From a virus: a stretch of DNA of 42,281 nt. Positions 4,350 through 35,376 of the stretch are shown here, piece after piece (within the stretch, counting starts at the first letter, position 1; every line of letters begins with the position of its first letter). The stretch is from the IMG/VR virus record IMGVR_UViG_3300032240_001128, positions 1 through 42,281 of that record; one strand, 5' to 3'. Below the pieces are notes generated by a model. The model was given only the letters and a program-made list of their open reading frames with translations. It was not told the DNA's origin and made no database searches. A program made the translations under genes and the position numbers.

Positions 4350-4389
4350 GTGTGCAGCCCGTCAGGCGGGTCTGCTGTCCCTATACCGC
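4350..4389 (-). promoter_or_regulatory. Possible promoter and hairpin before the lysis block
   Basis: The gap between the 67-residue gene and the lysis block contains GGTATAGGG on the minus strand (TATA at 4385-4382), the same string seen near 1116. Just downstream is a hairpin of GCAG and CCCG against CGGG and CTGC, with one bulge. There is no T-run, so I read it as a start-site region rather than a terminator. Confidence 0.3.
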
Positions 4390-4398
4390 GCGCAGCCC

Positions 4399-14800: not shown

Positions 14801-16747
14801 CTGGTCGTTGAATATGCCAAGCTCAACCTGAGTATTCGCCACCGCCTGCGATGCGGAAGCCATCGCAGCCCTGTAGCCAGTAGACGCCTCGTCAGCCCCC
14901 AGCGTGGCATCGTATTGGAGCTGGAGCGCAGTGGTGTGGTCGAGCACCACCTGCGTGCCGTTGAGCGTGGTGGTGAACAGGTCACCACTGGCCAGCCCAG
15001 CCTGCACCGTGCCGCTGTCAAGCCGTTGCAGGTGCTCCAGCTGCTGCTCAATGGTATTGCTCAGCTGGCCTCGCGCCTGTAGCTCCAGCTCAAAGCCCGC
15101 CAGTGTGGTGGCCTGCGTTCCCGCGATGGCGTCGGCTTGCTTCTTGGCAGCAGCTGCGCGCGCGTCGGCCTCTGCCGCCAGCTTGGACTCGGCCTCTCGC
15201 AGCCTGTCGGCAGCGTCGGCTGCCGCGTTGCTGCTCAGCGTAAGGTAGGCGATGCCAGCCACGAGAGTGCCCACAGCGGCCACGACAGCATACAGCCCAC
15301 CCGTGGCAGCCGTGAGCGCGGTCATGACCGCCTCCACCCCGCCCGTCATGGCCATCAGCCCCGTGTATGCCGCCTGCACAGCCATCACGAAAACGCGCAC
15401 CTTGTCCGCAACCCAGATGACCAGCATGTATTTGGCAAGGCTGGTCAGCACTGGCAGCAGCTTGCCGAGGAACACCATCGCATCGCGCACGCCGTTGACG
15501 AAGCCAACGAACGTCAACGCGATTTCTGCCCGGTTGTTCCGCAGGTATTCCACCACCTGCTGCACGGTGTCCGAGAACGAGGCACCGATGGTGCCCGCCT
15601 GCCTGTTGAACACGCTGGCAACGTAGTTCAGCGTATCGCTGATCTCGGTTATCAGGCTTGAAAGCGGCCCTTTCATCTGGTCGAACAGGGACAGCATCAG
15701 CTCTTGGAACGACGAGGTGGCGATGTTGATGCGCCCCTGCACCGTGTCCGTCATGGTGGTGTAGAGCTTCTCGGCGTTACCCGCGCTATTCTCCAGTTCC
15801 CCCAGCAGCTCGTGGAACTGCGTGCTGCCGTCCGCGAACTGGCGCGCGATGGCCACCACGTTGGCACCACTGCGCTGCCCGAACACGTCGATGGCGTCCG
15901 ATGTGGTCATGGCCGACTTGCCGATGGTGGTCATAATGTCGGCGAAGGAGTGCAGTTCTGGGTTGATTTGCTCCTGCGTGATGCCGTACTTTTCCAGCGT
16001 CTTGCGGGCACTGTCGGTAACGTGCGCAGCGGCAGACATGGCCATGCGGAAGCTCGTGCCCGCCATCGAGCCTTCGAGGCCGAGGTTGCGGAACTGCGCC
16101 ACGGCAGCGGTGGTCTGCTCCAGCGTGTAGCCGAAGCCTGCGCCCACCGTGCCAGCGTACTTCATCGCCTCTTTGAGAGAATCAATGTTGAAAAGCGACT
16201 TCTGGAGTGTGCGCGTGAATACGTCCGAAACCTTGTTGGCCTGCGTGGCATCCATGCCAAACTGCGCCAGCGTGGCGGCGGTCAGCTCTGCCGAGTTGGC
16301 CAGCGTGGTAGCACCGCCTGCTGCAAGGTACAGCGCGGGGCCAGTAGCGTTCATGATGTCGTTGACTTTATAGCCCGCCGAAGCGAACCAATACATGGCG
16401 TCCGACACCTCCTTCGCCGTGTATTGCGTGGCGATGCCCAGCTCGCGCGCCTTGTTCTCCAGCTGCTTGAACTGCGGCCCCACGGCACCAGCCACCGCTG
16501 CCGTTGTTTGCAGCGACTGCTGGAAGTCGATGCCCACCTTCAGCGTGGCCACACCGAACGCGGCCATAGCCGCACCAGCGGCTGCGAGCGCGCCCTTCAC
16601 CACGCCGTCCAGCGAGCCAGCGAACGCCTCGCCCTGCTTCTGCATCCCCTCCAGTGCCGCTGTAGCGCCTTTCAGCCCACCACGGAACTGGCTGTCCTCC
16701 AGCCCCAGCTCGACTAAGAGCTTGCCGATGCTGGTTCCGCTGGCCAT
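11810..16747 (-). CDS. Tail tape measure protein
   Basis: 1645 residues, the longest gene here. Residues about 60-330 match the TP901-type tape-measure core (FQQSLQTTAAVAG, YTAKEVSDAMYWFASAGY, FRNLGLEGSMAGTSFRM). A hydrophobic region at about 440-510 is followed by a long coiled coil (about 750-1000) and then roughly 300 residues of hydrophobic repeats rich in LVQ, LPTII and IIMALV, typical of tape measures. The protein sets tail length and passes through the tube on infection. It lies right after the frameshifted chaperone pair, as in most siphoviruses. Taking 0.15 nm per residue, the tail would be near 245 nm, a rough inference. Confidence 0.95.
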   Translation of the reverse strand: MASGTSIGKLLVELGLEDSQFRGGLKGATAALEGMQKQGEAFAGSLDGVVKGALAAAGAAMAAFGVATLKVGIDFQQSLQTTAAVAGAVGPQFKQLENKARELGIATQYTAKEVSDAMYWFASAGYKVNDIMNATGPALYLAAGGATTLANSAELTAATLAQFGMDATQANKVSDVFTRTLQKSLFNIDSLKEAMKYAGTVGAGFGYTLEQTTAAVAQFRNLGLEGSMAGTSFRMAMSAAAHVTDSARKTLEKYGITQEQINPELHSFADIMTTIGKSAMTTSDAIDVFGQRSGANVVAIARQFADGSTQFHELLGELENSAGNAEKLYTTMTDTVQGRINIATSSFQELMLSLFDQMKGPLSSLITEISDTLNYVASVFNRQAGTIGASFSDTVQQVVEYLRNNRAEIALTFVGFVNGVRDAMVFLGKLLPVLTSLAKYMLVIWVADKVRVFVMAVQAAYTGLMAMTGGVEAVMTALTAATGGLYAVVAAVGTLVAGIAYLTLSSNAAADAADRLREAESKLAAEADARAAAAKKQADAIAGTQATTLAGFELELQARGQLSNTIEQQLEHLQRLDSGTVQAGLASGDLFTTTLNGTQVVLDHTTALQLQYDATLGADEASTGYRAAMASASQAVANTQVELGIFNDQMAKYEQVTKAGGASSKDAQILLGRFGSTMEEVQARGQQLTATLAEQRKKLDGLTNGMDLATKTLSKHEMATLNASEAEGRMGDAAEGAGDKAKAAAEEWKRAYEARLKAVERVEDAIGKRQATSTDKLRNEMQAQLETINEAFDAEVKAYGKQRARIAAAERERARVVAEIHADATAQAVADQTKAVDDIAAATLAAGRTAAEQEAFVQQQALQKRRDDLEATFQQELVLYEKGSVDRLFVLEHYFKAAAQLEALEAAESAKRQREAQAKVDAQVLTLRTQDAQAAANELQAIEADRQASLLEAVGATQEQVAAINALYDGRVLAQKRKLTDEVVMLVAGEGRKVLQLERERDAMLARLGDDQTDERQQVIDYYTQAIDDANAEAADSTDEAGAKMAAALDVVKQAALNVAKAIASGIGDAAQGVIGLFADMTGFSFDLFDAVDSVKGAMGDTADLAAQLAAGDISPTEYTAQMAALPSSLATAAEQYVTELVQGASQMLSAFVEAAPALVQALGAQLPALIDQFAAALPAVTQGLVDSIGPLIEALVQAVPQVAQALADSIGVVIDALVAGLPGLVSSLLDAIVQLLPTLGGIIAQLVDIVPWLVQSVLQALPTIIQSLVGALGTIIMALVDAVIMLVQVVIQQLPTIIQALVQGVLQLVQVLLAAIPQLIIGIVQQLPALIRAVLDAVTLLVQELVAQLPTIINALLVAVTDIIVAVAEMLPSLLTSIIEMLPSLIMAIVQLIPSLIKGVVSAIPYIITALINSIPVIIKALFTELLPAIFTSIPEIIGGLFKAIFYEIPMAIGELMAQLGTALWKLIDEGIDAVGKFFRDVIAEIVSLGADETATFGDTPGAVRAGAGGLSARFAPGDYVVAAQNPAVLLQQALDAMQGQFASALGPAGRGYSVGQADVPAAAGLAQAMLQAASAITASAQGTGGLGGTQQVQVTVQANGRTLDEALWEAGQRGQTPRLTRDLRQTTLRAGVHVGFTRGKFSP

Positions 16748-17929: not shown

Positions 17930-18481
17930 TCAGAGCACCCGCTCCAGCTTCATCAGCTGGACGCGCGGGGCGAGGGTGTTCCCCGCCCAGTCGGTGGCGG
18001 CGCGAAGCGCGGTGTAGGAGTATTCAAAGCTGTGCTCGTCCTGCCCCAACGGCAGGGTAAGACCGTTCTCGCTGGTTGATTTCCAGATGTAGGCGTTCAG
18101 CGTGTTGCCAGACACCGCCATGTAGTGCTGCACGTGCAGCGCCACCTGCGTCACGATGGGGTCACCGCCCCACGAGAACGTCTCCGAGCTGCCCGACACG
18201 GTGGTGGTGCCCGCGCCGAGCGCGCGCGCAAAGTTGTTGAAGTCCCACTCGATGCCCGTGACCTTCAGCATGACGCCCTGCGTCTGCGAAAAGTTGTAGA
18301 CCGGGATCTTGGGATTGCCCTGCGAGATATATCGCTTCTCGCTGGTGTATTCGATGCTGACGCCGTCTTCGGAGATGGCTCCCACGTCGATGGTGGGCGT
18401 GGCCCCGGCGACGCCGAGGTAGAGAACGGCGGGGCCGAAGCTGATGTCGTTGGTGCTGACGGTAGGTACGTTGAACGGCAC
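17930..18481 (-). CDS. Major tail (tube) protein
   Basis: 183 residues, mainly beta (YTSEKRYISQGNPKIPVYNFSQTQGVMLKVTGIEWDFNNFARALG). The ISEDGVSIEY and TQGVMLKVTGIEWDFNN segments are in the style of phage tail-tube proteins. Location just before the tail chaperones and tape measure, with neck proteins before it, is the classic place for the tube gene. It should polymerise into the inner conduit. It has its own GCGTGATA box 74 bases upstream and a GGAGG site, which suits a highly expressed structural gene. Confidence 0.85.
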   Translation of the reverse strand: MPFNVPTVSTNDISFGPAVLYLGVAGATPTIDVGAISEDGVSIEYTSEKRYISQGNPKIPVYNFSQTQGVMLKVTGIEWDFNNFARALGAGTTTVSGSSETFSWGGDPIVTQVALHVQHYMAVSGNTLNAYIWKSTSENGLTLPLGQDEHSFEYSYTALRAATDWAGNTLAPRVQLMKLERVL

Positions 18482-19117: not shown

Positions 19118-19551
19118 TGCCCACTCCTGTAACCCGCACGCAGCGCCCACTGGCCCTGAGCGTAGTACGCACGAGCCACCTCGTTCCAGCCCTCGTTCGC
19201 GCGCTCGCTCTCCACTGCGTACCCAGCCACCGGAATGCCATCCCGGCGCAGCAGCTGGTGCTGGAGCGCAGCGGCGCAGGCGTCGTAGATGCGCAGCGCC
19301 TCGCCCGCGCTGTCGCGCGAGTATGCGTACACGTCCACAGTGCACAGCTGGTAGGTGCTGGTCGGGCTGATGTGGCCAGCAACCACGTCAATGATGACCA
19401 TCGGGTACACCACCGAGCGAGCATCTGGGTCTTGCACATGCGCACCGCGAACGTGCTGGCCCACCAGCGCGGCCACTGCGCTGTCGGACAGCAGGTGGCT
19501 GCGTAGCAGCAGCTTCAACTGCTCCATGCTGGGTGCTGGGTTCAGTGCCAT
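19114..19551 (-). CDS. Tail terminator / tail completion protein (DUF3168-like)
   Basis: 145 residues starting MALNPAPSMEQLK at ATG 19551, which overlaps the previous stop as TGATG. The order of elements (helix LRSHLLSDSAVAALVG, then VYPMVIIDVV, TSTYQLCTVDVYAYSRDSAGEALRIYDACAAAL, then QWALRA) fits the small alpha/beta fold of tail-completion proteins of the DUF3168/gpU type, which cap the tail tube and join it to the neck. Its place between a gp10-like protein and the tail tube agrees. Confidence 0.75.
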   Translation of the reverse strand: MALNPAPSMEQLKLLLRSHLLSDSAVAALVGQHVRGAHVQDPDARSVVYPMVIIDVVAGHISPTSTYQLCTVDVYAYSRDSAGEALRIYDACAAALQHQLLRRDGIPVAGYAVESERANEGWNEVARAYYAQGQWALRAGYRSGQ

Positions 19552-20078
19552 CACGTACCTCCGAAGCGGATGCCCGCCTGCGTGCGTAGTTCCTTGCCCA
19601 TCACAGTCACGAACGCGCGCATCATGGCCACGCGCATGTGAGGCGCGCTGACGCTGGCCCATAGAACGTCGCGTCCGAGCATGATTCTGGTTCCCTCAAC
19701 CACCCAGCGCACATAGCGGGGCGCACTGTCGGGCCAGCCGAGCAGGTAGTAGGGGCGCGCACCACCACCTGCACCACCTGCGCGGAACTTGACTTGGCCT
19801 TTCAGTGCAGCCGCCATGCTGCCGCTCTGGCTGTGCACCACGTGCGTTTCGCTGGTGTGCACCCGGATGCTACCGTGCCGCTTGGCATACGGGTGGCCGA
19901 GGCTGCGTAGCTGTGCAAGGCTGTGGTCGCTGCGCGTGACGTTGCGATAGGCTTCGCCCAGCGCAAGCGCACCAGCTGCGCCCATCGCCAGCCCAGCGGC
20001 ATCCCGCGCCACACGCTTCTCCAGCCCTCGCAGGTTGAAGATGGTGGCGTCGAAGCCGATGAGCCGGGTGTTTGACAT
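19551..20078 (-). CDS. HK97 gp10-like neck protein
   Basis: 175 residues from ATG 20078. The second helix contains RVARDAAGLAMGAAGALALGEAYRNVTRSDHS, followed by the HT(S/…)SGSMAAALKG region and a C-terminal helix (MRVAMMRAFVTVMGKEL). This is the usual style of HK97 gp10/tail-component proteins that bind between connector and tail. The gene follows the glycosyltransferase by four bases and precedes the tail terminator, the normal neck order. Confidence 0.7.
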   Translation of the reverse strand: MSNTRLIGFDATIFNLRGLEKRVARDAAGLAMGAAGALALGEAYRNVTRSDHSLAQLRSLGHPYAKRHGSIRVHTSETHVVHSQSGSMAAALKGQVKFRAGGAGGGARPYYLLGWPDSAPRYVRWVVEGTRIMLGRDVLWASVSAPHMRVAMMRAFVTVMGKELRTQAGIRFGGT

Positions 20079-20082: not shown

Positions 20083-22893
20083 TCAGGTTGCCTTGCTGGC
20101 AGCATGACACGCTGCCTCGAAACCATCCAGCAGCACCTCCAAGTCCGCATCGGCGGGAACAGCCGTGTGGCCAGCGCCGAGCTTCGGCTGGTCGGGTGCG
20201 TGCTCGGTCAGCCACCGCTCCATTTCCAGCACCTGCCCGTGCAGCGTGTGGCCCGGCACCAGCCGTTGACGGCTGTGGGTCACCAGCGTGCGCGCGATGC
20301 GCAGGTGGTACAGCGCCGCCTCCCGGAAGGGCAGGTAGCCCGTGCCAGCGCATCGCATGGCTGCCTCGTAGCAGGCCCACTGCTCGTCGCCCCTGCCGTC
20401 GTTGCCATACTGGAGGCCCAGCGACACCCACGCACCGGGGCTGCGCGGCTCGTCGGCCAGCTGCATCATCAGCAGGCGAGTGTACCGCTCCAGCTTGCGC
20501 TGCATGGCCTCCGGGCCACCCGCGAGGCCACGGTGGTCAACGGTGAAGGGCGCATAGCGCACCTGCGGGTGGATGCCGCGCCGCCCCAGCTCGGCCATGC
20601 CCTGCTCCAGCGTTTCGTGAACGCGCAGGTTGAACCGAAGGATGCCGCCATCAAGGCGGAACATGCGGGTGTTCTCGCTCCAGTTCCACTGCCCGTCCGC
20701 GCGCCAGTTACGGAACCGGAACATCCACGCCCAGCTGTCCGTGCACTCGGCCATGCGGCGCAGCGCGATCAGCGCGTTGAACGTGTTTTCGTAGCTTTCG
20801 TCCGCGTCCATCACGTGGCACCACGTGCACCCGTGCTCGCGCAGCCTGTCCACGCCAGCGTTTCGGGCGGTGCCGAGGTCGTCGTTCAGCGGGTGGTACA
20901 CCCACTCCACCCCGTACCGCTCGGCCACGTACTTGGTGTCCTCGTCTGGCTCAGTGCCAGCAGGGCCAGTCCACACGAGTACGATGTTGTCGGCCAGTGC
21001 GTACACTGCATCGAGGTGGCGGTGCAGGTCGAACAGCTGTTCGCCTGCGTGGTACAGCATGGTGAAGCCGATGCCGTTGGCGGGCTGCCACGGTTGCAGC
21101 TGCATCCCCTCCTCGCGCACGAGGTGGTCGTAGCTGCCCGCGCCCTTGGTGCTGCCTTGCGTGAGCACGCTGTCAGGCTGCGGGTCGAGCTGGTTGTACC
21201 GCTTCCACTTGCGAACGCGGTCTTGCGGCCTCATGTACCCGTAGTGACGGAAGCGGAACGCCGCCACCCGCTTGGCGTTCTCGCCTGCGTCGGGCACGTT
21301 GCCACAGTGCAGACCGATGGCGTTGCCTGCCTGCACCTGCTGCGTGCTGGGGTGCGTGACGCGCCAGATGCGGAACCCGCGCATGGAGCTACGGTAGTCA
21401 GGCGCGCACCACGGTGCGTCCACGCGGGACAGGCGCGGCGTGTCCCAGTGATTCGCCCAGCCAACGTCGTACAGCTGCACGAGCGGGTCGGGGTTGCGCA
21501 GCAGGCGCTGCACGTGCGCGCGGTCAATGCGCTCCTCCACCACCTCGTCGTGGTCAACCGACATCATCCAGTCAGGGTTCATCCCAAGCCCCAGCGCGAT
21601 GCTGGCGTTGCGCTCGTTGCGCTCGTTCCACTCGCCCTGCCACACGTCTGCGGCCACCTGCACCGGGTGCGCAAGCCCAGCCAGCTCCACCAGCTGACCG
21701 AGGTACACGCGCAGCGCCTCGGCGATGGCTTCGGGCGCAGCACCGCTGCACGTTGCCACCAGCTGAGCCTCGGGCGGCGGCAGCCTGCCCAGCTGCCACT
21801 CGTCGCTCTGCATGACCTCGGCGGGGTTGCCAGTGGCCAGCACCGCCAACCCGTCCGCCAGCTGCGCGGTGCGAATGACCGACTGCCGGAACATGGCGAG
21901 GTCGTAGGGTGTGCTCCAGCGCACGCGCCACACTGCCATCAGCTTCTGCTCGCGGTTGGTGTAGGCTTCCCACGTGCGCAGGTAGGTGGGCAGGTTGGCC
22001 ATCCCACGCTGTGCCTCCGGGTAGTGCGCGTCGAGCGTCTGGTGGCCGAGGTGATGCACGTAGCAGTTCGTCGCGATGGCCATGCGCCAGCCCAGCAGCT
22101 GAGCACGCATGGCGATGTCGTTGTCGTCGTAGCCGCCCACCCGGTACTGCGGGCGCACGAGGCAGGGCTGCCCGTCATGCTGCTCCAGCAGGTCTACGAG
22201 GCAGTCGCGCGCGTACAGCACGCACAGACCAGACAGGAAGCTGGCTGCCATCGGCGTCCAGCCGTTCTGCTCGGCGTAGTTCCCAGCGAACTGGTCAAGC
22301 ATGGCGTCAGCGTCAGCGGTGAAGGCGCTGCCGTTGCCCATTTTCACATCGGGCGCGCGCACGCACTGCACGCCAGCCACCACGTTCGACACAGGGCCGA
22401 CCATGCCGATGCGACCGTAGTTCGCCACAGGGTGCGCAGGCGAGTTCGGGCCATACCCGGCGACCTCGCCTTGGAGCTTGATGTCGCTGGTGGTGAGCGC
22501 GCCGTGCATTCGGTGCAGCCAGCCGGGGGTCACGCGCACATCGTCGTTCATCACCACCACGTTGCTGGGCAAGCCCTCGCCGTTCAGCGCCGCGCGCACG
22601 CCAGCGTTCACAGCGCCAGTCCAGCCAGCGGGGCCATCCAGCTGCACCCACTCCATCGTCACCTGCTGCGGGCTGGTGGCGCAGGCAAGCTCGGCCACCG
22701 CCTGCACCTGCTGGCGCAGGGCTTCGATGGTGCCGTTTTCCACCAGCTCGGCGCGCGGGTTGACCACCAGCATCAGCCGCCACTTGTCCACCTGCGTGCA
22801 GGTGATCAGCCGCTGCACGCAGGGCAGCACCAGCGCCGGGTCGCCCATCGTGGGCACAATCACCAGCGCACCGTTCTCGTCGTCGTACCGCAT
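20083..22893 (-). CDS. Three-domain family 2-type glycosyltransferase with C-terminal helical repeats
   Basis: 936 residues from ATG 22893 (GGGAGAG site; an upstream start at 22947 would add 18 unlikely residues). Domain 1 (about 8-300) has an IVPT start, GWTGAVNAG at 90-98, NDDV at 116-119 as the metal/sugar motif, and GYDDNDIAMRA at 254-264. Domain 2 (about 380-560) has WNERNERNASIALGLGMNPDW and DHDE at 447-450. Domain 3 (about 605-790) has NDDLGTARNAG at 670-680 and MDADES at 695-700. Residues about 800-900 look like TPR-type helices. It probably transfers activated sugars to a phage or host acceptor in the cytoplasm. It stands between structural genes, and the acceptor is unknown. Confidence 0.85.
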   Translation of the reverse strand: MRYDDENGALVIVPTMGDPALVLPCVQRLITCTQVDKWRLMLVVNPRAELVENGTIEALRQQVQAVAELACATSPQQVTMEWVQLDGPAGWTGAVNAGVRAALNGEGLPSNVVVMNDDVRVTPGWLHRMHGALTTSDIKLQGEVAGYGPNSPAHPVANYGRIGMVGPVSNVVAGVQCVRAPDVKMGNGSAFTADADAMLDQFAGNYAEQNGWTPMAASFLSGLCVLYARDCLVDLLEQHDGQPCLVRPQYRVGGYDDNDIAMRAQLLGWRMAIATNCYVHHLGHQTLDAHYPEAQRGMANLPTYLRTWEAYTNREQKLMAVWRVRWSTPYDLAMFRQSVIRTAQLADGLAVLATGNPAEVMQSDEWQLGRLPPPEAQLVATCSGAAPEAIAEALRVYLGQLVELAGLAHPVQVAADVWQGEWNERNERNASIALGLGMNPDWMMSVDHDEVVEERIDRAHVQRLLRNPDPLVQLYDVGWANHWDTPRLSRVDAPWCAPDYRSSMRGFRIWRVTHPSTQQVQAGNAIGLHCGNVPDAGENAKRVAAFRFRHYGYMRPQDRVRKWKRYNQLDPQPDSVLTQGSTKGAGSYDHLVREEGMQLQPWQPANGIGFTMLYHAGEQLFDLHRHLDAVYALADNIVLVWTGPAGTEPDEDTKYVAERYGVEWVYHPLNDDLGTARNAGVDRLREHGCTWCHVMDADESYENTFNALIALRRMAECTDSWAWMFRFRNWRADGQWNWSENTRMFRLDGGILRFNLRVHETLEQGMAELGRRGIHPQVRYAPFTVDHRGLAGGPEAMQRKLERYTRLLMMQLADEPRSPGAWVSLGLQYGNDGRGDEQWACYEAAMRCAGTGYLPFREAALYHLRIARTLVTHSRQRLVPGHTLHGQVLEMERWLTEHAPDQPKLGAGHTAVPADADLEVLLDGFEAACHAASKAT

Positions 22894-22941
22894 CGTCGCT
22901 CTCCCTCGCCTCTCGGGCGTGTTGTGTGGGTGCAGCGAGGG

Positions 22942-22949
22942 TATCACGC
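22942..22949 (-). promoter_or_regulatory. Recurrent GCGTGATA box before the glycosyltransferase gene
   Basis: GCGTGATACCC on the minus strand, 49 bases before the glycosyltransferase start, in the 63-base gap after the preceding gene. The stretch just upstream (CTAACCGC, 22952-22963) resembles half of the inverted repeat seen at 37698. Confidence 0.4.
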
Positions 22950-22956
22950 TCTGCGG

Positions 22957-23580
22957 TTAGGTGGTGTAACGGCTGCACCGTAGCTGCCAGTGGTGTGGGC
23001 GCACGCCGAACCCCACGCGCACCTCGCGCACGCCACGCACCACCCACACCTCACCCGTGGCTGCCTCGGTGCACAGGTCGTCCACTCGCGGGCACCACAC
23101 TTCCTCGTAGTCCACCAGCGTGATGGAGCCGTCCAGTTCCTGCGTGCCCTGCGTGGCTGCCGGGTAGTCGAACGGGCCAGTCCAGCCCACCACCACGGGG
23201 CGGTCGGCAGCCACCTCCACCTGCATGAACTGGGGAGTCCCGTCTGCGCTTACCGCCTGCACCGCCACGGTGGGCACAGCGGCCTCGTTCGCCAGCCCGG
23301 TCGTGGCGATGGCGGTCACAGTGGCGAACCGCTTGGCAGTCACCTGCGTGCCATTCGCCGCGAACGTCAGCACCTCGGACAACGCGCCACCACCGGGTGC
23401 AGTACCCGTCAGCGACACGGTGCCGCTGCCAGTGGTGCCACCCGCCACAGTCACCTGCACGAACGCAGCACCAGCCAGCGCACGCGCAGGCGTCAGACTC
23501 GCTGCCGCTGCTGTGGCCTCCAGCACGTAGGCGGTTCGACGCGCGAATGTCCAGTAGCGGCTGGCACTGCTGGCGATCAT
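22957..23580 (-). CDS. Head-tail/virion structural protein, uncharacterised
   Basis: 207 residues from ATG 23580 (ATGA overlap with the methyltransferase). The N-terminal half has Thr/Gly-rich strands (FVQVTVAGGTTGSGTVSLTG, VTAKRFATVTAIATTGL), the C-terminal half is acidic and aromatic (LVDYEEVWCPRVDDLC). The ending is conserved-looking (VWVVRGVREVRVGFGVRPHHW). It has no catalytic motif; beta-rich make-up and place between neck genes suggest a decoration or neck protein. An acceptor role for the adjacent glycosyltransferase is one option, without direct evidence. Confidence 0.55.
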   Translation of the reverse strand: MIASSASRYWTFARRTAYVLEATAAAASLTPARALAGAAFVQVTVAGGTTGSGTVSLTGTAPGGGALSEVLTFAANGTQVTAKRFATVTAIATTGLANEAAVPTVAVQAVSADGTPQFMQVEVAADRPVVVGWTGPFDYPAATQGTQELDGSITLVDYEEVWCPRVDDLCTEAATGEVWVVRGVREVRVGFGVRPHHWQLRCSRYTT

Positions 23581-24086
23581 GCCTTGATGCCCCACACCAT
23601 CGTGTCCAGCCCTTGCCGAGCCAGCCCACCATCCAGCTGCCGCCACTCGCAGGCAGCACGCAGCACGGCCAGCATCTCGTCAGGGTCGCGCCCTCCGTAG
23701 TAGCCGGGTGTCGGGCTGTCCTCCAAGTGGTGCTCGGGTCGCAGCTTGCTGGCGCAGGTGAACGCCAGCAGGCCACCGGGGCGCAGGTGCTGTGCAGCTG
23801 CACGCAAGGTTTCCTCCCAGAACGGGTCGTGCTCCAGCATTTCCGTGCTGACCACCACATCCACGGGGCCACCCTCGGGAGGGTGCTCGTGCGCGATGCC
23901 CACCACGTCAACGCCTGCGCCTGCGTAGGCGTCGATGCCGAGGTAGTAGCTGGGCGCGGGGAACAGGCGGCGCGGGCTGCCGTTGATGTCCCTGCTGCCG
24001 TACTCCAGCACACGCGCGCCAGCGGCGAACAGGCTGGGGTGGTTGAGCTTCATCTGGCTGAGCCAGTCCATGACGGTGCTGTGCAT
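23577..24086 (-). CDS. SAM-dependent class I methyltransferase
   Basis: 169 residues. Rossmann motif I is VLEYGSRDINGS (about 26-37), followed by YLGIDAYAGAGVDVVG (strand 2 acidic residue), DVVVSTEMLEHDPFWEETLR (motif IV area) and LRPGGLLAFTC. This is the Methyltransf_11-type order for small-molecule or glycan methylation rather than a DNA methylase: there is no DPPY/NPPY. Starting at ATG 24086 it overlaps the preceding stop as TGATG; GTG 24089 is possible. Located between an unknown protein and a structural gene inside the sugar cassette, it could methylate the transferred sugar, an inference. Confidence 0.8.
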   Translation of the reverse strand: MHSTVMDWLSQMKLNHPSLFAAGARVLEYGSRDINGSPRRLFPAPSYYLGIDAYAGAGVDVVGIAHEHPPEGGPVDVVVSTEMLEHDPFWEETLRAAAQHLRPGGLLAFTCASKLRPEHHLEDSPTPGYYGGRDPDEMLAVLRAACEWRQLDGGLARQGLDTMVWGIKA

Positions 24087-24751
24087 CACTGCTCCTGCGC
24101 GGGCTGCGCTGTCTCGCCCTCTGGGGCGGTTTCATCGGTCGGGGTAGGCGCTACCACGGGTGAGCCGCTCAACGCGCCCAGATCGCCGCTGAGAGCGGTT
24201 GTCGGCTGTGCCTCGGTGGGGCTGGGGACTGAGTCCGCAGGCAGCACCACTTCGGACGGCGGAGGCGGAAGCTGCTCGGCGGCAGCGCGGCGCTTCTTGC
24301 GTGCTGCTTCGGGCGCAGCGGTCACCACCGTGACCAGCGAGCGCCACTCCCCATCCCACGCCTGCACCGAAACCTGCCCAGCATCCGACACGATGATGCG
24401 CAGTGGCTCCGCGCCCAGATGCACGATGTGCGCCTCGTGCGTGGCACCCAGTGCCGCCACACGTTCCGCAGCCGCGCCCGCCTCGCCACACACCACAGCC
24501 ACCACCGCGCTGCGCAGGTCGTGCAGAAGCTCGGCCAGCTGCGCATCCGTGCCGACCACCACGGTGGCTCGACCGATGTGCGCTCGCCAGCCAGCGGCAC
24601 CAGCCACAGCGCGGCCACGCCCCACGGGCGGCAGCTTGGCGCTGTCCTCGACGTCCATCAGCAGCACGTGGCGAGCGTAGTGCAGGCTCTGCTGCACAGC
24701 AGCCAGCTGGTCAGCGGTGGGCAGAACGCCCACCAAGTCATTTTGACGCAT
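24086..24751 (-). CDS. Hypothetical protein of the sugar cassette
   Basis: 221 residues from ATG 24751, overlapping the RmlB-like gene by 14 bases. The first 150 residues look globular alpha/beta (ATVVVGTDAQLAELLHDLRSAVVAVVCGEAG, AHIVHLGAEPLRIIVSD); then comes a basic patch (RKKRRAAAEQL) and a Pro/Thr/Glu-rich disordered tail. No family recognised. Translational overlap with RmlB-like and methyltransferase genes suggests a linked task. Confidence 0.6.
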   Translation of the reverse strand: MRQNDLVGVLPTADQLAAVQQSLHYARHVLLMDVEDSAKLPPVGRGRAVAGAAGWRAHIGRATVVVGTDAQLAELLHDLRSAVVAVVCGEAGAAAERVAALGATHEAHIVHLGAEPLRIIVSDAGQVSVQAWDGEWRSLVTVVTAAPEAARKKRRAAAEQLPPPPSEVVLPADSVPSPTEAQPTTALSGDLGALSGSPVVAPTPTDETAPEGETAQPAQEQ

Positions 24752-25751
24752 GAATGGACTCCACGAAGGGCGCGAGGTGAACGGGTGTGTCGGAGCCGTA
24801 GTGCGCAAGCATGGCGCGCAGGTGCTTCGGATCGAGGATGTCGGCTTCGGCCTGCCAGCCCAGCTCGGACAGCTTGGTGCCGTCGATGCAATAGGCGGCG
24901 TCCTGACCGGGGCGCTGGGTGGTGTAGCGCATGGCGTGCTCGGCAGGCACCCCAGCTTCCTCGGCCAGCGCCTGCACCAGCTCGGCCACACTGCACACCG
25001 TTGGCCCAGCGATGTTGAGCACCGTTCCACTGGTGATGTCGCCGTCGTGCAGCCACGTGCCGACCTGCACCAGCGCCGACGCGAACTCCGGTGCTGCCAC
25101 CCACTGGCGCAGCTGCTGCCCGCCACCGTGCAGCGGCACAGGCTCGCCACGGTTCAGCAGGCTGCACGCGATGGGCATCAGCTTCTCTGCCAGCTGACCC
25201 GTTCCCCAAGCGTTGCACCCGCGCGTGATGGCATAGCGCAGGCCAGCACTGTGGCCCATCGCCTGCACTGCCAGCTCGCCCGCTGCCTTGCCTGCACTGT
25301 AGGGGCTGGACGGGTGCAGCTTCGCCTGCTCGCTGAACGCTGTGGGCACACGCCCCAGCATCAGCGCAGGGCCATACACCTCGTCCGTGGAGCAGTAGAC
25401 CATCGGCACGTTCGCAGCAGCGCACGCTGTGGCCACCACCTGCGTGCCGTAGGCGTTCACAGCCATCGCCTCGTTCGGCTCGCGCAGGCTTCGGTCAACG
25501 TGGCTCTGCGCAGCGAGGTGCAGAACCATGTGAGGCTGCGCAGCAACGATAGTCGCCAGCACCTCGTCAGGCGAGCACACGTCGCCCAGCCGCAGCTGCT
25601 GCCCCAGCGACTTGCTCACCGCGTGCCACCCAGTGGCTGCACGGGTGCGCGCATCGAGCACGTGCACGTTCTGCGCACCGTGTAGCCGCACCAGCCGCTG
25701 CACCACGTGCTGGCCGATGAAGCCCGCTCCACCTGTAACGAGCCAGCGCAT
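24738..25751 (-). CDS. RmlB-like NDP-sugar 4,6-dehydratase
   Basis: 337 residues. Extended SDR fold with TGGAGFIG at 6-13, LHLAAQSHVDRS at 78-89, CSTDEVYG at 120-127 and Tyr151-x3-Lys155 (YSAGK). The T-D-E triad together with Tyr/Lys are the catalytic residues of dTDP-glucose 4,6-dehydratases, so the enzyme looks intact; RTRAATGW rather than KLTYAGN follows strand 2, so the nucleotide or sugar may differ. The reaction makes a 4-keto-6-deoxy sugar for deoxysugar biosynthesis. No RmlA or RmlC partner is visible in the window. Start ATG 25751 overlaps the connector stop as TGATG. Confidence 0.87.
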   Translation of the reverse strand: MRWLVTGGAGFIGQHVVQRLVRLHGAQNVHVLDARTRAATGWHAVSKSLGQQLRLGDVCSPDEVLATIVAAQPHMVLHLAAQSHVDRSLREPNEAMAVNAYGTQVVATACAAANVPMVYCSTDEVYGPALMLGRVPTAFSEQAKLHPSSPYSAGKAAGELAVQAMGHSAGLRYAITRGCNAWGTGQLAEKLMPIACSLLNRGEPVPLHGGGQQLRQWVAAPEFASALVQVGTWLHDGDITSGTVLNIAGPTVCSVAELVQALAEEAGVPAEHAMRYTTQRPGQDAAYCIDGTKLSELGWQAEADILDPKHLRAMLAHYGSDTPVHLAPFVESIHASK

Positions 25752-26323
25752 CAGCTTGTCGCGTCCTTGGGAAAGATGCGCACGTAGCGCGCAAGGATGG
25801 CCAGCGCAGCAGGCGGCATCGCGCTGCTGTCCAGCGAGTAGCGATACCCGGTCATGCCCTCGCTGCTCATGCCAGCGTGGCGCGCACGGTTGAACTCGGC
25901 CACCGCGCACAGCGTGGCGGCGTGCTGGAGGTCGGCAGGCACGGTGCTGAAACCGTATGTGTACGTCACCGACACCTGCTGCCGCCCAGCTGGGAAGAAC
26001 TGCCCGCTGCCCGTTAGGCGCAGGGTGCCGGGCAGCTTGTCGATGTACCATGCGGCTGCGCTCAGCGTTGCACCAGCAGCCTGCACTGCTGCCACGCTGG
26101 CCACCGGGAACTGGCGCAGCGACAGCTCGGTGGTGCCCACCTGCTCAATGTCGTAGACCTCGGTGACGGTGGTGGACGTCAGCGCCGCCATGCCGCAATA
26201 CGCCAGCACCTGCTGGTCTGCCACGGCAACCAAGTCGTCCAGCAGCGCGTCGTGAATGGTCACGCCTGTGGGGATGCCGAGCACCCGCTTGCAGCGCACC
26301 GTGCTGGTCAGGTCAGACGCCAT
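25751..26323 (-). CDS. Head-tail connector (gp6-like adaptor)
   Basis: 190 residues from MASDLTSTVRCKR at ATG 26323 (11-base overlap with the preceding gene; ATG 26374 would add 17 residues). The layout, a helical N-terminus with TIHDALLDDLVAVADQQVLAYCG, then beta strands with VYDIEQVGTTELSLRQFPVASVAAV, and a final helical part (PADLQHAATLCAVAEFNRAR … ILARYVRIF) is that of connector complex proteins (HK97 gp6/lambda gpFII-neighbour style). It should sit below the portal. It follows the capsid gene by one gene, as expected. Confidence 0.75.
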   Translation of the reverse strand: MASDLTSTVRCKRVLGIPTGVTIHDALLDDLVAVADQQVLAYCGMAALTSTTVTEVYDIEQVGTTELSLRQFPVASVAAVQAAGATLSAAAWYIDKLPGTLRLTGSGQFFPAGRQQVSVTYTYGFSTVPADLQHAATLCAVAEFNRARHAGMSSEGMTGYRYSLDSSAMPPAALAILARYVRIFPKDATS

Positions 26324-26828
26324 CGAGTTCACCTGCGCGCGGGCCACGCCGATAGCGATACCCAGCGTTCCCACGCTCGTGCGCCTTGCGCCGCTCCCGC
26401 GCAGACAGGTTGCACGCTGCCAGCCCCTTCTCCTCCAGCAGCCGGATGGTGGTGCGCCACTCGCTGTCGGTGATGCCGCTGGTGCGCACGAGCTGTCCCT
26501 TGTCCTGCCACTCGTCGGTCAGCGCGGCGAAAATGGCGCGCTGGCTGGGCGTGGTCAGCTTCGGCTTGGCGTCCTCCAGCTTCTGCATCCACGCGGCAGT
26601 AGCGTCCTGCCAGCCGAGGCGCACAGCGCGCTGGAACGCCTCGTCACTGGCGAGGAACAGGGTGTGCGCCACCACGCCGTCCATCTCGATGGCGCGGCTG
26701 TCGGTGGCCTCGGTGTAGGTTGCGAACGCGATGGGCTGCGCGTCCCCGTGGTCAGCATCCTTGTCGTAGCGGCGCACCACGTGCCGATAAGCCGTGGCGT
26801 CAGGCGGGGTTTCCAGTAGTGCGCTCAT
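26313..26828 (-). CDS. Winged-helix-like hypothetical protein
   Basis: 171 residues. Residues about 90-160 suggest a winged helix: TPSQRAIFAALTDEWQ, then QLVRTSGITDSEWRTTIRLLEEKG (likely recognition helix), then a basic beta wing (RERRKAHERGNAGYRYRRG). The N-terminal 80 residues are acidic/aromatic and unassigned. The gene is the first after the capsid terminator and has both a GCGTGATA box 24 bases upstream and a strong GGAGG site, so it starts a transcription unit. Regulator or structural protein are both open. Confidence 0.6.
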   Translation of the reverse strand: MSALLETPPDATAYRHVVRRYDKDADHGDAQPIAFATYTEATDSRAIEMDGVVAHTLFLASDEAFQRAVRLGWQDATAAWMQKLEDAKPKLTTPSQRAIFAALTDEWQDKGQLVRTSGITDSEWRTTIRLLEEKGLAACNLSARERRKAHERGNAGYRYRRGPRAGELDGV

Positions 26829-26977: not shown

Positions 26978-27985
26978 TTAGGCGTTGGCGCTGATGCCAG
27001 CGAGCACGGACGCGCCCTTGGAGTTCGCGAGCACCACCGCGCCGTCCCAGTAGATGTCGAACTGGTCGAACTGGGAATCGGTGGTCGCAAGCGGCATCAT
27101 CGTCATGGGCGTCAGCTCTTCGAGGTAGGCGTGACGCTTGTTGACGACCACCAGCGCAGTGGTGGGGTTGGTGACCTCACCGGAGAGCTTGGTGATGGCG
27201 CTGCCCGACCAGCCGAGGTCGTCGCGCATACCCGTGGACACCACGATGGGCACGCCGTCGTAGGTGCGCACGCGGAAGCCCGCCGCGATCTCGGTTTCGT
27301 TGATGAACTGCTGCTGCGCCTGCAAGGCGGCGTTGAGCTTGCGGATGCCCTTGAACGAGCCGTAGATGACGAGGTCGGAACGGTTGCCCGCACCGCGCAC
27401 CGCGTCGATGGCTTCGTCCAGCTTGACGAGGGTGAGCGAGCCACCAGCGCCAGCCGAGGTCTGGGCAACCACCTGCCCCGACACCGCGTTGATCAGCGTG
27501 AGCAGGCCGTTCATCATGTTGGCGTCGCCGCTGGCACCGCTGTCGCCGATGAAGATCGCGGACTCCAGCGACTCGTTGAAGTCGTCGGCCTTCTGCATCA
27601 TTTCCTCAGCGAGGATGTCGATGTAGGAGCGTCCACGCGCGCGCATCTTGCGGGTCACCTTGCCACGGGTGGCGAGCGTCGCGTAGGTGAACGACACCTG
27701 CGCATAGCTGCCAGTGCTCTCCACGACCGAGTCGGTGTCCGCCACCCACACGTCCGCCACCGCCATCGCGCCAGCGGTGCGGCGGTTGATGATGGCAGCC
27801 GAGCCGGAACCGGGCTTGCGATCCATCGTGCCGAGCGCGCCGAACTCACGGATGGAGAGCTGCTGGATGATGCGGTTGGTGAAGTTCTGAACAAGGCTGG
27901 TGCCAGCGTTGCTCACGTTGATGGAGCGTTCGAACGCCCCACGGCGGGCGGGGTCAAGCCCAGCCCAGACGGTCAGGTTCGACAT
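26978..27985 (-). CDS. Major capsid protein (HK97 fold type)
   Basis: 335 residues. The order (NFTNRIIQQLSIREFGALGTM, an N-arm-like start; SYAQVSFTYATLATRGKVTRKMRARGRSYIDILAEEMMQKADDFNESLESAIFIGD, the spine-helix and E-loop region; later MNGLLTLIN, LVIYGSFKGIRKLNAAL, and GFRVRTYDGVPIVVSTG) follows that of HK97-like capsid proteins. It comes directly after the protease/scaffold gene, carries a strong GGGGAGG site at the end of that gene and ends in a terminator, all consistent with high expression. I see no obvious N-terminal delta domain, which matches a separate scaffold. Confidence 0.88.
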   Translation of the reverse strand: MSNLTVWAGLDPARRGAFERSINVSNAGTSLVQNFTNRIIQQLSIREFGALGTMDRKPGSGSAAIINRRTAGAMAVADVWVADTDSVVESTGSYAQVSFTYATLATRGKVTRKMRARGRSYIDILAEEMMQKADDFNESLESAIFIGDSGASGDANMMNGLLTLINAVSGQVVAQTSAGAGGSLTLVKLDEAIDAVRGAGNRSDLVIYGSFKGIRKLNAALQAQQQFINETEIAAGFRVRTYDGVPIVVSTGMRDDLGWSGSAITKLSGEVTNPTTALVVVNKRHAYLEELTPMTMMPLATTDSQFDQFDIYWDGAVVLANSKGASVLAGISANA

Positions 27986-27988: not shown

Positions 27989-28438
27989 TCAGACCTCCCC
28001 AAAGGTGTCGTTGATGATGCCGTCGGCGAAGGCGGCGGTGAGCAGGCTGCGCAGGTCAGTCTCAAGCTCAGCGCGGGACTGGAGCTTGTGACTGTCGCGG
28101 CGCTCGGCCTGTGCGCGGGCGACCTGCACCAGCGCGCTGTCGGTGCCGAGCGTGCGCTCGACGGAACGGATGAGGGGCGCGTGGCCACCGACATCGGTGT
28201 GGCGCGCAGCGTGCGGGCTGTGAGCCACGCCAGCGCGGCCAGCGGCGGTCAGCGCGCGCTCCAGTTTGCGATTCGCAGCCTCCAGCTGCTCGCGCAGGGT
28301 GGTGGCCTCGTCCTTCTCGGTGGTGGTCGGGGCGACACGCTCCACCAGCTTGCCGATGGCACCGTGGAGTTCGCCGATGGCGCGCTCCATGCTGTCAAGG
28401 CGCTTGGTGTCGGTCGCCGTGCTGCTGTTGTCAGTCAT
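27989..28438 (-). CDS. Scaffold protein from an internal in-frame start
   Basis: In-frame ATG 28438 (Met671 of the protease gene) is preceded by GAGGAAAACGCC, a good ribosome binding site with 7-base spacing. Starting here gives a 149-residue protein: an acidic N-terminus, a coiled coil (MERAIGELHGAIGKLVERV, LREQLEAANRKLERAL) and a basic C-terminal helix region. It would be the counterpart of lambda Nu3 inside gene C. The start is inferred from sequence only. Confidence 0.65.
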   Translation of the reverse strand: MTDNSSTATDTKRLDSMERAIGELHGAIGKLVERVAPTTTEKDEATTLREQLEAANRKLERALTAAGRAGVAHSPHAARHTDVGGHAPLIRSVERTLGTDSALVQVARAQAERRDSHKLQSRAELETDLRSLLTAAFADGIINDTFGEV

Positions 28439-30448
28439 GGCGTTTTCCTCGCTGGTGGTTGATGGCAGTTCTGCGCTTACAGCGGCGTCTGACTGGCTGG
28501 TTGCAGTAGAACCCTGCGAGCCAGCGTTGTCAAGCCCCGTATCACCCGAGCGCAAGGCGGGTGGTTCCTTGTCGAATCGTGCGTAGAGCGCGGTGAGCTT
28601 ACGGTACACCGCCTCTTTTTCGTCGGCAGGCAGGTCTACTCCGCCACGTGCGCCCAGCAGCGCGCCCATCGCGGCGGCTACCCCACGCCACACGATGTGG
28701 ATGCTGCCGTCGATGACCTTGGCGAACGCCAGTTTGTAGCTGCCACGCACCTCGGGTGCGCTCTCGTCGTACCATGCGTGTACGCTTGCGAAGCGCCGCC
28801 AGTTCGGCGGGTCGCCCAGCACTGCATTTGCATCGCTGGCATCCCAGCTCCACGGGGTGTTTTCCGGTGCCAGCGGGAACTGCGTGTTTCCGCTGGCAGT
28901 GCGCTCCGCGTTCTCTGCGTCGGCCTCGGCCTGCGTGGCGGGCGCGTGCCCCGGCGCACCGCCCGCCATGATGTCGTCAGTGGTGCCCACTTGGTACGCA
29001 TCGCAGACGTACTCGTGGTGAGCGGCGAACCCGAACTTCTTGCACCAGCCGTCGCGCGTGTAGTATTCGCAGCGGTTGCACACCTGCGTGCCGATGTTGC
29101 TGTAGCGGTAGTTAGGTGCGTCAAGGAAGGTGCCACGTGTGGCAGCCGCCTCGGTTGCGCTCTCGTCGGTTGCCATCGGTTGCTCCGTGCTGGGGGTGGT
29201 GGTGGCTGCGGCAGCCGCTTCGGCCTTGGCATCATCGAACGGGCCGCCCACGACCCACGCCGCACAGGTGCGCTTCGCGCTACACTTGAAGTCGAACGCC
29301 TCGCAGAAGCCGAACGCGCCCTCGCGCTCCACCTCGGCGGCATCCGGGCCACCGATGCCCTGCGTGATGCAGTTCTGCACCTTGGTGGTGGTGTTGAACA
29401 GCGAGCAGTTCCCGCACACCATGCTGCGAGCCTCCTCCACCGTGGCCTGCCACGCCTGCGCCTTCTTGTCCCAGAAGTCACCGGGGTTGTCAGGGTTGGC
29501 TGGCCCATAGCCAGCACGGTCAATCGCGTGCTGCCTGTTGGCGAGGTTGGTGGGGATGTCCTGCGTAGCCACCGGACAGCTATCGCCCTCGGCGACGGTG
29601 CCGTTGGCCTCGGTTTCAGCCTCGTCAGCGTCGTCGTCGCCTACCACCACCGTCACAGCATCGCGCTGCACCAGCCCGCCGAGGTTGGCGGCAGCACGTG
29701 CAGCTGCGCTCTCCAGCGCGTGCTGGGGAAGCGCGCGCGCGGCGCTGAACGCTTGCGTGGTGCTACGGTGCAGCCCACCGATCCAGCTGTCCGGATTGCT
29801 GGGGCGGCGCGTCACAGCAAGGTGGTCGAGTTCCACCGCCTTGATGAAGATGCGGTCAACCTCGTCATTTTCGTTGGTGGTCACCTCGGCGTCGGTGAAC
29901 CATCCACCGATGCTCATGCCCACCACCTGCCCGCGCTCCACCGCCTGCATCAGCGCCTGCGCCTTCGGGTGGTCGGGGTACAGCTCCACGCGCACAGCCA
30001 GCCGATAGCCGTCCGCCTGCCCCTTGGTTCCGCCGTCGCGCACCACCATGCCCTGCTCAACGCGGGCCTCCACGGTGCGGCCCATCACGTCCATCCACTC
30101 GTCGTCGTTGTGCGCAGGCACATACGGAACACCAGCGGCCATCTGGAGCGCCATCGCATCCAGCGCCTCGCGGGTCATCTCGGTGCCGTGCCAGTCCACG
30201 CTGGTGCTGCTGGCGATGCCCTCCAGCACCATCGGACGCGCGGCATCAGCTTCGCCACCAGCCATACGTGCAGCCGCACCTGCGCCGGGTGCAGCTGGCG
30301 CATCCCGCTGCACGACCAGCGCGCCGGAAAACACACCCTGCATCGGCAGGCGGCACCGCCCAGCCCACACTCGTTTCCCGTCACGGTCGCCCGTGTAACG
30401 GAGGTCGATGTGGTGCTCGGTGTTACCCACAGGGACGGTCACGCGCAT
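27989..30448 (-). CDS. Prohead protease fused to cysteine-rich and scaffold domains
   Basis: 819 residues. Residues about 72-225 are an HK97-type prohead protease: PAHN with His113 and GMSIGG with Ser179 as likely catalytic pair, plus LDHLAVTRRPSNPDSW. Two cysteine clusters follow: C345/348/360/382/389/395 and C457/460/469/482, resembling small iron-sulphur or zinc knots seen in some phage proteases. Residues about 535-625 carry a domain typical of phage proteases (AYKLAF… WRGVAAAMGALLGARGGVDLP). Residues 671-819 form a scaffold: a coiled coil and a basic C-terminus. The protease would cut scaffold and capsid termini during head maturation. The domain order is clear; cofactors are inference. 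Confidence 0.85.
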   Translation of the reverse strand: MRVTVPVGNTEHHIDLRYTGDRDGKRVWAGRCRLPMQGVFSGALVVQRDAPAAPGAGAAARMAGGEADAARPMVLEGIASSTSVDWHGTEMTREALDAMALQMAAGVPYVPAHNDDEWMDVMGRTVEARVEQGMVVRDGGTKGQADGYRLAVRVELYPDHPKAQALMQAVERGQVVGMSIGGWFTDAEVTTNENDEVDRIFIKAVELDHLAVTRRPSNPDSWIGGLHRSTTQAFSAARALPQHALESAAARAAANLGGLVQRDAVTVVVGDDDADEAETEANGTVAEGDSCPVATQDIPTNLANRQHAIDRAGYGPANPDNPGDFWDKKAQAWQATVEEARSMVCGNCSLFNTTTKVQNCITQGIGGPDAAEVEREGAFGFCEAFDFKCSAKRTCAAWVVGGPFDDAKAEAAAAATTTPSTEQPMATDESATEAAATRGTFLDAPNYRYSNIGTQVCNRCEYYTRDGWCKKFGFAAHHEYVCDAYQVGTTDDIMAGGAPGHAPATQAEADAENAERTASGNTQFPLAPENTPWSWDASDANAVLGDPPNWRRFASVHAWYDESAPEVRGSYKLAFAKVIDGSIHIVWRGVAAAMGALLGARGGVDLPADEKEAVYRKLTALYARFDKEPPALRSGDTGLDNAGSQGSTATSQSDAAVSAELPSTTSEENAMTDNSSTATDTKRLDSMERAIGELHGAIGKLVERVAPTTTEKDEATTLREQLEAANRKLERALTAAGRAGVAHSPHAARHTDVGGHAPLIRSVERTLGTDSALVQVARAQAERRDSHKLQSRAELETDLRSLLTAAFADGIINDTFGEV

Positions 30449-33392: not shown

Positions 33393-33422
33393 CAGAACCT
33401 CCCGCGCACCGCGCACGCCCCA

Positions 33423-33708: not shown

Positions 33709-35376
33709 TCACCCAAGGTATGCTCCCTGTCCTGTGAGTAAGTCCATGGCGACACGGCTGTACGCATCGCAGAAACGGTAGTGGTCGTCGGCAGTGCCCT
33801 CGCTCCACAGGTAGCGGGTGCCGCTCTCGTTCAGCACCCGCTTCGGTGCCTGCATCTGGTCGGCCCAGCCCTTGACCCGCCACACGTCCTCGGGCCACGT
33901 GCGGCGCGCAGGCACCACACGTGTGTCCTCCATCGTGGCGTCCAGCAGCTGGGTACGGTCAACGGTGGCCAGCTTCCGGTCGTAGTCAAGGCGCACACCG
34001 TAGTCCTGTGCCCCCACCCGGTCGGTGGCGTGGAACTGGCACAGCCACACATCGCACACACCCGTTTCCGCGCAGCGGTCACGCAGCTGCTGTGCAGCCC
34101 GCGTCTCGGGCCTCGCGTCCACCACAGCGATGTCAACGTGGTAGCGCACGAGCAGGTCGTACAGCTCCTCAAAGGTGCCAACCTCGCCCGTCCAGCGACC
34201 GCGCCGCACGTTGCGCTCGTCCTCGGCGCGTGCCTCCACCACGCAGATGTCAACGTGCAGCGCGCGACTGCCTACGTCGATGCCAGCCACCACTTGCTGA
34301 CGTGCCAAGCGTGGGTCACCGCCCTCGTCCAGCGGGTCGCCGATGGCTGCGCGCATCAGCATCTCCTGCGTGACTGCGCTGCCTTCGGGCGCGTAAGGCA
34401 TCCCCAGCACCGAGGCATAGAACGCCACCAGCTTGGTGCCGCTGCCCTGCGCCTCCAGCCACTCCGCCCACAGCGGGCGCAGGTCTTGCGACAGCACATC
34501 GAGGCGGCTGATTTGGTAGCCGCGTCGGTGCTGCGTGGGGCGCTCGGCAACCCACTGGCCACCATTGGCCACCCGGTCGAACGGCTTGCCACACTTGCGG
34601 CACACCGGGCGCACGGTGCCCGTCACCTCGCTGGCAGTGTCGCGCAGCACCCAGCGCCCAGCCGTGTTCCTGTCCACCACGTTGGCGAGCCAGTCCAACG
34701 GCTGGCGCTCGCCGCAGTGCCCGCACTGGTGATGCCACTTGCGCCCATCGCTCTGGTCGTACAGCCCAGCGATGCCCTCACGCGGGAGTGTGGGGTTGCC
34801 GATGCGGAACAGCTGCGGGTGCTGGCTGGCGCGCAGTCGGTCGCGTGCGAAAGCGAGGTTCTCCTGCACACAGCGGTCGTACTCGTCCACCACCAGCGTG
34901 TCGGCGCTGAACTCGATGAAGTCGTTGACGGTGTTGGAACCCAAAAAAAGGAGCGCGCCCTTGCCGAATCGCTTGTGGCGCACGCTGCCGATGTCCCCGT
35001 GCGTCAGCTTGGCAGCGTAGGCGGGCACCTGCTCCAGCAGCGGGTGGATGCGGCGCTGCACGAAGCGGTCACGCAGCTGAAAGCTGGGCAGCACGTAGGC
35101 GCAGATGCGGCCACCCCAGCCAGCGCGCTCCAGTGCCAGCTGCACCAGCAGTTCGCTCCAGCCTACCTGCACGCATTTCATGGCGTCGAACCCGTCGATG
35201 CGTGGCGCATCGCAGTAGAGTTCGATCAGGTAGGGCTTGTCCTTGAACGTGAGCGGGTCGCCGCGCGTGCTGCGATGGTGGCGCAGCGCGATGCCGAGCA
35301 GTGGGTACTGCTCGGACAGCGTGTCCACCACGCGCGTGGTCGGTGCCTCCAGCTCGGTCAGCCTGTCGCGTGCCAC
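33709..35376 (-). CDS. Terminase large subunit (GpA family)
   Basis: 555 residues from GTG 35376, which overlaps the previous stop as TAGTG and has AGGAGG 8 bases upstream. ATPase: KCVQVGWSE at 67-75 aligns with the lambda gpA element KSARVGYSK (deviant Walker A), LVVDE at 161-165 is Walker B. A zinc-finger-like pair follows (C218-x2-C221; C259-x2-C262). Nuclease: D367 (GIDVG), D420 (VVDAR) and DDHYRFCDAY (530-539). The enzyme cuts concatemers and pumps DNA into proheads with the small subunit. It is the best anchor for taxonomy. Confidence 0.93.
   Translation of the reverse strand: MARDRLTELEAPTTRVVDTLSEQYPLLGIALRHHRSTRGDPLTFKDKPYLIELYCDAPRIDGFDAMKCVQVGWSELLVQLALERAGWGGRICAYVLPSFQLRDRFVQRRIHPLLEQVPAYAAKLTHGDIGSVRHKRFGKGALLFLGSNTVNDFIEFSADTLVVDEYDRCVQENLAFARDRLRASQHPQLFRIGNPTLPREGIAGLYDQSDGRKWHHQCGHCGERQPLDWLANVVDRNTAGRWVLRDTASEVTGTVRPVCRKCGKPFDRVANGGQWVAERPTQHRRGYQISRLDVLSQDLRPLWAEWLEAQGSGTKLVAFYASVLGMPYAPEGSAVTQEMLMRAAIGDPLDEGGDPRLARQQVVAGIDVGSRALHVDICVVEARAEDERNVRRGRWTGEVGTFEELYDLLVRYHVDIAVVDARPETRAAQQLRDRCAETGVCDVWLCQFHATDRVGAQDYGVRLDYDRKLATVDRTQLLDATMEDTRVVPARRTWPEDVWRVKGWADQMQAPKRVLNESGTRYLWSEGTADDHYRFCDAYSRVAMDLLTGQGAYLG

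Follow-up and report, generated by a model that had tools for sequence, protein, structure and literature searches.

Gene order at the locus

The virus record IMGVR_UViG_3300032240_001128, a fragment of a phage genome of 42,281 bases (the window, meaning the whole stretch analysed), carries a cassette of sugar-modification genes inside its head-tail assembly operon. The cassette is bordered by a gp6-like adaptor gene and by a gene at the position of gp10, and between them follow an RmlB-like nucleoside diphosphate (NDP)-glucose 4,6-dehydratase, a 221-residue protein (u221), a class I S-adenosylmethionine (SAM) methyltransferase (MT), a probable head-tail stopper and a large glycosyltransferase (GT). 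An RmlD-like reductase lies apart from them. All genes discussed are on the minus strand (Table 1), and the longest close relatives are contigs of 71-79 kb. The initial annotation had located these genes correctly, and Pfam or PHROG matches agree with its assignment of the connector, the RmlB-like, MT and GT genes and the RmlD-like gene. Its gp10-like neck gene stands by position and synteny; a PHROG search gave no match, and the name is positional only.

Translational linkage had been proposed for the entire cassette. It holds from the adaptor through the stopper, where overlaps of 1-14 nucleotides occur at the adaptor/RmlB, RmlB/u221, u221/MT and MT/stopper junctions. The GT start shared by all relatives is ATG 22893, located 63 nucleotides past the stopper stop and behind a purine-rich stretch resembling a ribosome-binding site; the previously assigned start at 22947 was rejected as it is not conserved among relatives. 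Because the GT has its own leader before the conserved start, it is not tightly coupled translationally to the genes before it.

Predicted enzymes of sugar synthesis

The best solved relatives of the RmlB-like protein are all dTDP-glucose (deoxythymidine diphosphate glucose) 4,6-dehydratases (E 5e-39). The sequence contains the GxxGxxG, T-D-E and Y-x3-K motifs of the family, and T122-D123-E124 and Y151xxxK155 are invariant in nine aligned sequences. The RmlD-like protein, a putative reductase whose gene lies behind the endolysin as described before, keeps STDYV and Y117xxxK121 invariant in six sequences and its gene is conserved in G001, G003, G004, G007 and G008; the profile match spans positions 1-149 of 287 only.

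The absence of an RmlC gene, remarked on in the initial annotation, does not extend to the clade. Relatives encode an RmlC-like cupin above the curated dTDP_sugar_isom cut-off (G001, G003, G004, G007, G010 and G014, the last with a strong match of 138 bits), and in the first four its gene is separated from the RmlD-like gene by about 1.4 to 5 kb and lies past the point at which the window ends. As the window ends 1.16 kb past that gene, the missing RmlC means little. The cupin also matches PF14667, which makes the exact product sugar uncertain. RmlA was found neither in the window nor in six relatives, in agreement with the earlier suggestion, one of two, that host precursors would be used.

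Predicted transfer and tailoring of the sugar

Pfam places two GT2 domains in the GT, at residues 28-316 and 670-780 (limits in the 20083-22947 reading), giving a layout of an N-terminal GT2, a middle domain with GT-A-like motifs, a C-terminal GT2 and a helical tail. NDD, DHDE and DADE-type motifs are conserved in eight relatives, and in the middle part the ER.ERN and DHDE motifs are invariant and resemble a GT-A core, a reading of motifs with no database match. The protein, first described as having three domains, probably has three catalytic ones, two of them recognized by Pfam and the middle one by motifs only. A profile search of the PDB with the GT gave no match. No clear transmembrane segment is present in the GT or in the other cassette proteins, and the GT is by this prediction soluble.

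The conserved start of the MT is ATG 24086, and the enzyme probably O-methylates the sugar. More than 550 viral contigs contain a member of its family. The homologues in S-CBS4, phiPsal1, ctKR88 and Zuko adjoin GTs or other sugar genes, three of the four within or next to head genes, and the direct upstream neighbours in 27 related contigs include GT2, DUF4422 and epimerase domains.

Lineages differ in what lies between u221 and the stopper. This slot holds the MT alone in the window clade, L017 and L103, the MT together with a sulfotransferase-like protein in L019 and L152, and the latter with no detectable MT in L145, L148, L149 and L154. The sulfotransferase-like protein has a GxQRSGT-type P-loop and weak sulfotransferase matches (best E 4e-4, under the curated cut-off). 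This interchange of methyl- and sulfotransferase-like genes in one slot suggests capping of a glycan.

The u221 protein combines a conserved N-terminal part of about 150 residues with a variable Pro/Ala-rich tail, and profile searches of Pfam, PHROGs and the PDB gave noise only. It follows RmlB in the lineages examined and therefore probably works together with RmlB or in sugar synthesis.

Conservation of the cassette

The cassette order is kept in close relatives, whose GTs are 72-76% identical, and also in the deeper lineages L017, L018/L019/L102 and L103 (GT 42-60%, RmlB 45-54%, MT 54-56%, capsid 65-72%). A search with the capsid protein, limited to capsid identities of at least 65%, recovered RmlB in 25 of 25 and the GT in 14 of 14 sufficiently long loci, counts that include overlapping or near-identical contigs; conserved co-occurrence between connector and gp10 genes, proposed earlier as a check, is thereby borne out. 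Ratios of nonsynonymous to synonymous substitution rates (dN/dS) are 0.07-0.36 for the GT, 0.09-0.27 for the MT and 0.10-0.21 for the capsid gene, with u221 evolving fastest at 0.23-0.64. By these ratios the cassette is under purifying selection, and since its exact order recurs in relatives with dN/dS well below 1, it is not a chance arrangement.

Relatives that have no cassette help to define its limits. In L163 (capsid identity 45-46%) the adaptor, a small open reading frame (ORF), the stopper (12665-13306), the gp10-position gene (13319-13897) and the terminator are consecutive. L165 is another relative with no detected cassette, and no epimerase-family or RmlC-family gene is present in the L163 (29 kb) or L165 (92 kb) record. 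Because L163 keeps the stopper without the enzymes, the gene at 22957-23580 is counted among the neck genes, with one block of enzyme genes before it and another after it. Its structural model (predicted local distance difference test score, pLDDT, 79) weakly matches PBSX XkdH, neck proteins, head-to-tail stoppers and a closure knob; the matches to named stoppers, at E 0.03-0.06, are suggestive only, and a PDB profile search gave no match. The gene is most likely a head-tail stopper. The initial annotation had named it, along with the capsid and the tail, as a possible sugar acceptor; the idea of a dedicated acceptor was dropped given its presence in L163.

No match to cultured phages was obtained with the major capsid protein (MCP) or the GT as queries. 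A prophage search of GTDB genomes with the same two proteins yielded none; the only match was a single distant GT2 in a Gemmataceae metagenome-assembled genome. No tRNAs were found in four related loci.

Table 1. Genes of the cassette, its surroundings and the variable slot
Feature	Position	Strand	Basis or remark
gp6-like head-tail adaptor, upstream border of cassette	25751-26374	minus	phrog_442, 1.7e-24; conserved beside RmlB in relatives
RmlB-like NDP-glucose 4,6-dehydratase, 337 residues	24738-25751	minus	Pfam Epimerase, E 2.3e-47
u221	24086-24751	minus	same position in all lineages examined
Class I SAM methyltransferase (MT)	23577-24089	minus	phrog_32762, 2.2e-26; Methyltransf_23, 7.5e-10
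Probable head-tail stopper, N-terminal beta-rich domain	22957-23580	minus	position in cassette-less L163; weak structure matches
Glycosyltransferase (GT), 936 residues	20083-22893	minus	Pfam PF13641 and PF00535 above cut-off
gp10-position neck gene, downstream border of cassette	19551-20078	minus	position and synteny
RmlD-like NDP-4-keto-sugar reductase, short form of 236 residues, after endolysin	1164-1874	minus	RmlD_sub_bind, 1.9e-17
Sulfotransferase-like P-loop gene of relatives	L019 6661-7254; L152 14405-14980; L145 14059-14634; L149 14204-14827		beside or replacing MT
Terminase	33709-35526	minus	
Portal	30519-33416	minus	
Head protease	27989-30448	minus	
Major capsid protein (MCP)	26978-27985	minus	
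Terminator-position gene	between gp10-position gene and probable tail tube	minus	
Probable tail tube	17930-18481	minus	by position
Tape measure	11810-16747	minus	

Several features vary around the cassette. A small ORF of 74-133 residues separates adaptor and RmlB in L002, L008, L017 and L019; the window has none, its adaptor and RmlB genes overlapping each other. An ORF with a similar C-terminus lies between adaptor and stopper in L163. An extra 600-700 bases separate stopper and GT in L004 (9407-10043), L006 (2075-2711) and L103 (5557-6267), with ORFs of uncertain coding status. Further upstream, the portal gene is unusually long (965 residues); portal families match only residues 77-539, and relatives vary near residues 632-664. 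The protease has a Cys-rich segment at residues of about 285-403 (CGNC..F...C...G.C..F.FKC....TC..W). Many other phage contigs have segments with 43-53% identity to it, placed 1-2 kb upstream of their homologous MT gene (29 matches in the MT survey).

Comparison with known systems

Virion glycosylation by phage GTs has already been published (Freeman 2023, as cited in PMC11600133, PMC12363180 and PMC12691614), and the cassette can no longer be called an undescribed system in this general sense. According to these and related papers, cluster-O mycobacteriophage enzymes modify capsid and tail tube proteins (PMC11600133, citing Freeman 2023), Corndog gp38 and Che8 gp110 are named essential GTs (PMC12363180), and mycobacteriophage glycans are reported at the C-termini of capsid and tail tube proteins (PMC12619734). 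The phages of cluster O (Corndog, Firecracker, Dylan) share with the window O-methyltransferase and GT genes among head genes. In Firecracker and Dylan the order is portal, O-methyltransferase, unknown, GT, GT, protease, capsid. Their GTs are separate and small and lie between portal and protease, whereas the window cassette surrounds the stopper, and no RmlB is annotated between portal and capsid in the Firecracker and Dylan records. By analogy, our best reading is that the cassette would work like the mycobacteriophage system.

Similar modules occur in other phages. In the Pontimonas phage phiPsal1 and the Synechococcus phage S-CBS4, GTs of the head module adjoin an MT homologous to that of the window (31-43% identity); in phiPsal1 the module has the capsid gene on one side and gp6-type neck genes on the other. 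They differ from the window in having no RmlB in the annotated stretches and in using separate group 1 and GT2 enzymes, and the function of their modules is a predicted one. In ctKR88 (L012), a podovirus from Manatee Spring, a large block of sugar genes with GTs and methyltransferases (2015-10846) lies between the capsid and stabilisation-protein genes and forms a further glycan locus within a structural module. With GT or MT genes in the head modules of S-CBS4, phiPsal1, ctKR88 and cluster O, the generalization that phages usually keep sugar genes apart from neck genes is not supported.

Concerning sugar synthesis, the clade resembles the bacterial dTDP-L-rhamnose pathway RmlABCD in the fold and catalytic residues of RmlB, in the RmlD-like reductase and, in relatives, in the RmlC-like cupin, but lacks RmlA as described above and has a short RmlD-like protein. 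The RmlB is also about 35% identical to a homologue among the phage nucleotide-sugar epimerases of PHROG 540 (e.g. in phAPEC8-like phages), which belong to other phage types. The sugar supply of the clade would be more self-sufficient than in the known examples we found.

Probable function of the cassette

We consider it probable that the targets of the cassette are virion proteins of the phage itself, the acceptor being putative, and that they are glycosylated during assembly with a 6-deoxyhexose partly made by the phage. The enzyme families, their intact catalytic residues, the conserved order and their joint absence from cassette-less relatives can be read directly from the genomes; the identity of the sugar, the length of the glycan, the protein acceptor and the timing we infer. 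The host would supply NDP-glucose, probably dTDP-glucose, which the phage RmlB would convert into a 4-keto-6-deoxy sugar and the RmlD-like enzyme would reduce to a 6-deoxyhexose such as rhamnose, a step that may be assisted in relatives by an RmlC-like epimerase, whose gene would lie past the end of the window. In the cytoplasm, the soluble GT would then attach a short glycan to structural proteins and extend it, and the MT would cap the sugar, with a sulfotransferase-like enzyme acting instead or in addition in sister lineages. Expression within the head-neck operon would match timing and dose of the enzymes to their substrates. The initial proposal that the sugar is made and attached during virion assembly survives to the extent that the cassette sits within the head-tail genes and virion proteins are its most likely target.

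Several points weigh against this interpretation. The MCP and the probable tail tube have no Ser/Thr-rich tail at their C-termini, though Ser/Thr-richness of an acceptor is itself an assumption and other proteins may serve as acceptors; the place of the cassette in the operon is not enough to define the acceptor. The window GT and MT are not detectably homologous to those of Firecracker and Dylan, the two cluster-O phages compared: BLASTP detected nothing similar to the GT in Firecracker gp35 or gp36, and the MT belongs to another Pfam family. For these reasons we do not assign the cassette to the cluster-O system. The middle domain of the GT is putative, and the AlphaFold model of the GT was unusable (mean pLDDT 38.6 with five sequences). 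Finally, the lack of an integrase is compatible with action on the host surface during infection.

Such action is the strongest alternative, although we hold it to be unlikely. A host surface glycan (lipopolysaccharide, capsule or teichoic acid) would be modified during infection, blocking superinfection or keeping released progeny off debris. Pathways for cell-surface polysaccharides typically include RmlB, RmlC, RmlD and GT2 families, and PMC12619734 describes phage GTs by which the serotype of the host is changed. Here, however, the GT is soluble, the cassette contains no flippase or clear membrane protein, and its late structural-operon position is kept in all 25 loci. Seroconversion of the Gtr type, with a membrane flippase/GT in a temperate phage, was rejected as the main explanation on the grounds that no membrane span was found and no integrase in seven records, the long relatives included.

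Less likely still is a morphon-type insertion for auxiliary metabolism that has no role in the virion, the neck operon being a tolerated site and the product a diffusible or host-directed sugar compound. The two enzyme blocks flanking the stopper, the relative that lacks them and the location of RmlD- and RmlC-like genes elsewhere would fit an insertion, but no loss or relocation of the cassette was seen at capsid identities of 65-90%, and the dN/dS values of GT and MT are close to that of the capsid gene. Glycosylation of phage DNA, known from phages whose bases are hypermodified with sugars, is very improbable here and was rejected as the main explanation: phages can use nucleotide-sugar enzymes and GTs to hypermodify DNA (Pyle 2024, cited by PMC12619734), but the thymidylate synthase/pyrimidine hydroxymethylase family (PF00303) is found in none of seven records (the window and six related ones, three of them 75-79 kb long), the cassette lies among neck and not replication genes, and MT or sulfotransferase-like genes would tailor the product.

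Implications

Virion glycosylation extends to a more specific and more tentative proposal, which we put forward as a possibility rather than as the expected outcome. The clade may make its own activated 6-deoxyhexose with RmlB, RmlC-like and RmlD-like enzymes and build a methyl- or sulfate-capped virion oligosaccharide with a single three-site GT, and lineages may swap the capping enzyme, perhaps in response to immune-like or receptor selection. Such systems can be sought through the association of MT and GT, which recurs over many phage contigs and serves as a marker. Most documented cases of phage virion glycosylation come from a small number of mycobacteriophages. If virion glycosylation by the cassette is true, an unrelated uncultured clade with its own deoxysugar synthesis and exchangeable caps would carry tailored virion glycan coats outside any animal immune system, which would bring the purpose of the coat into question, be it protease shielding, grazer avoidance, adsorption or defence evasion.

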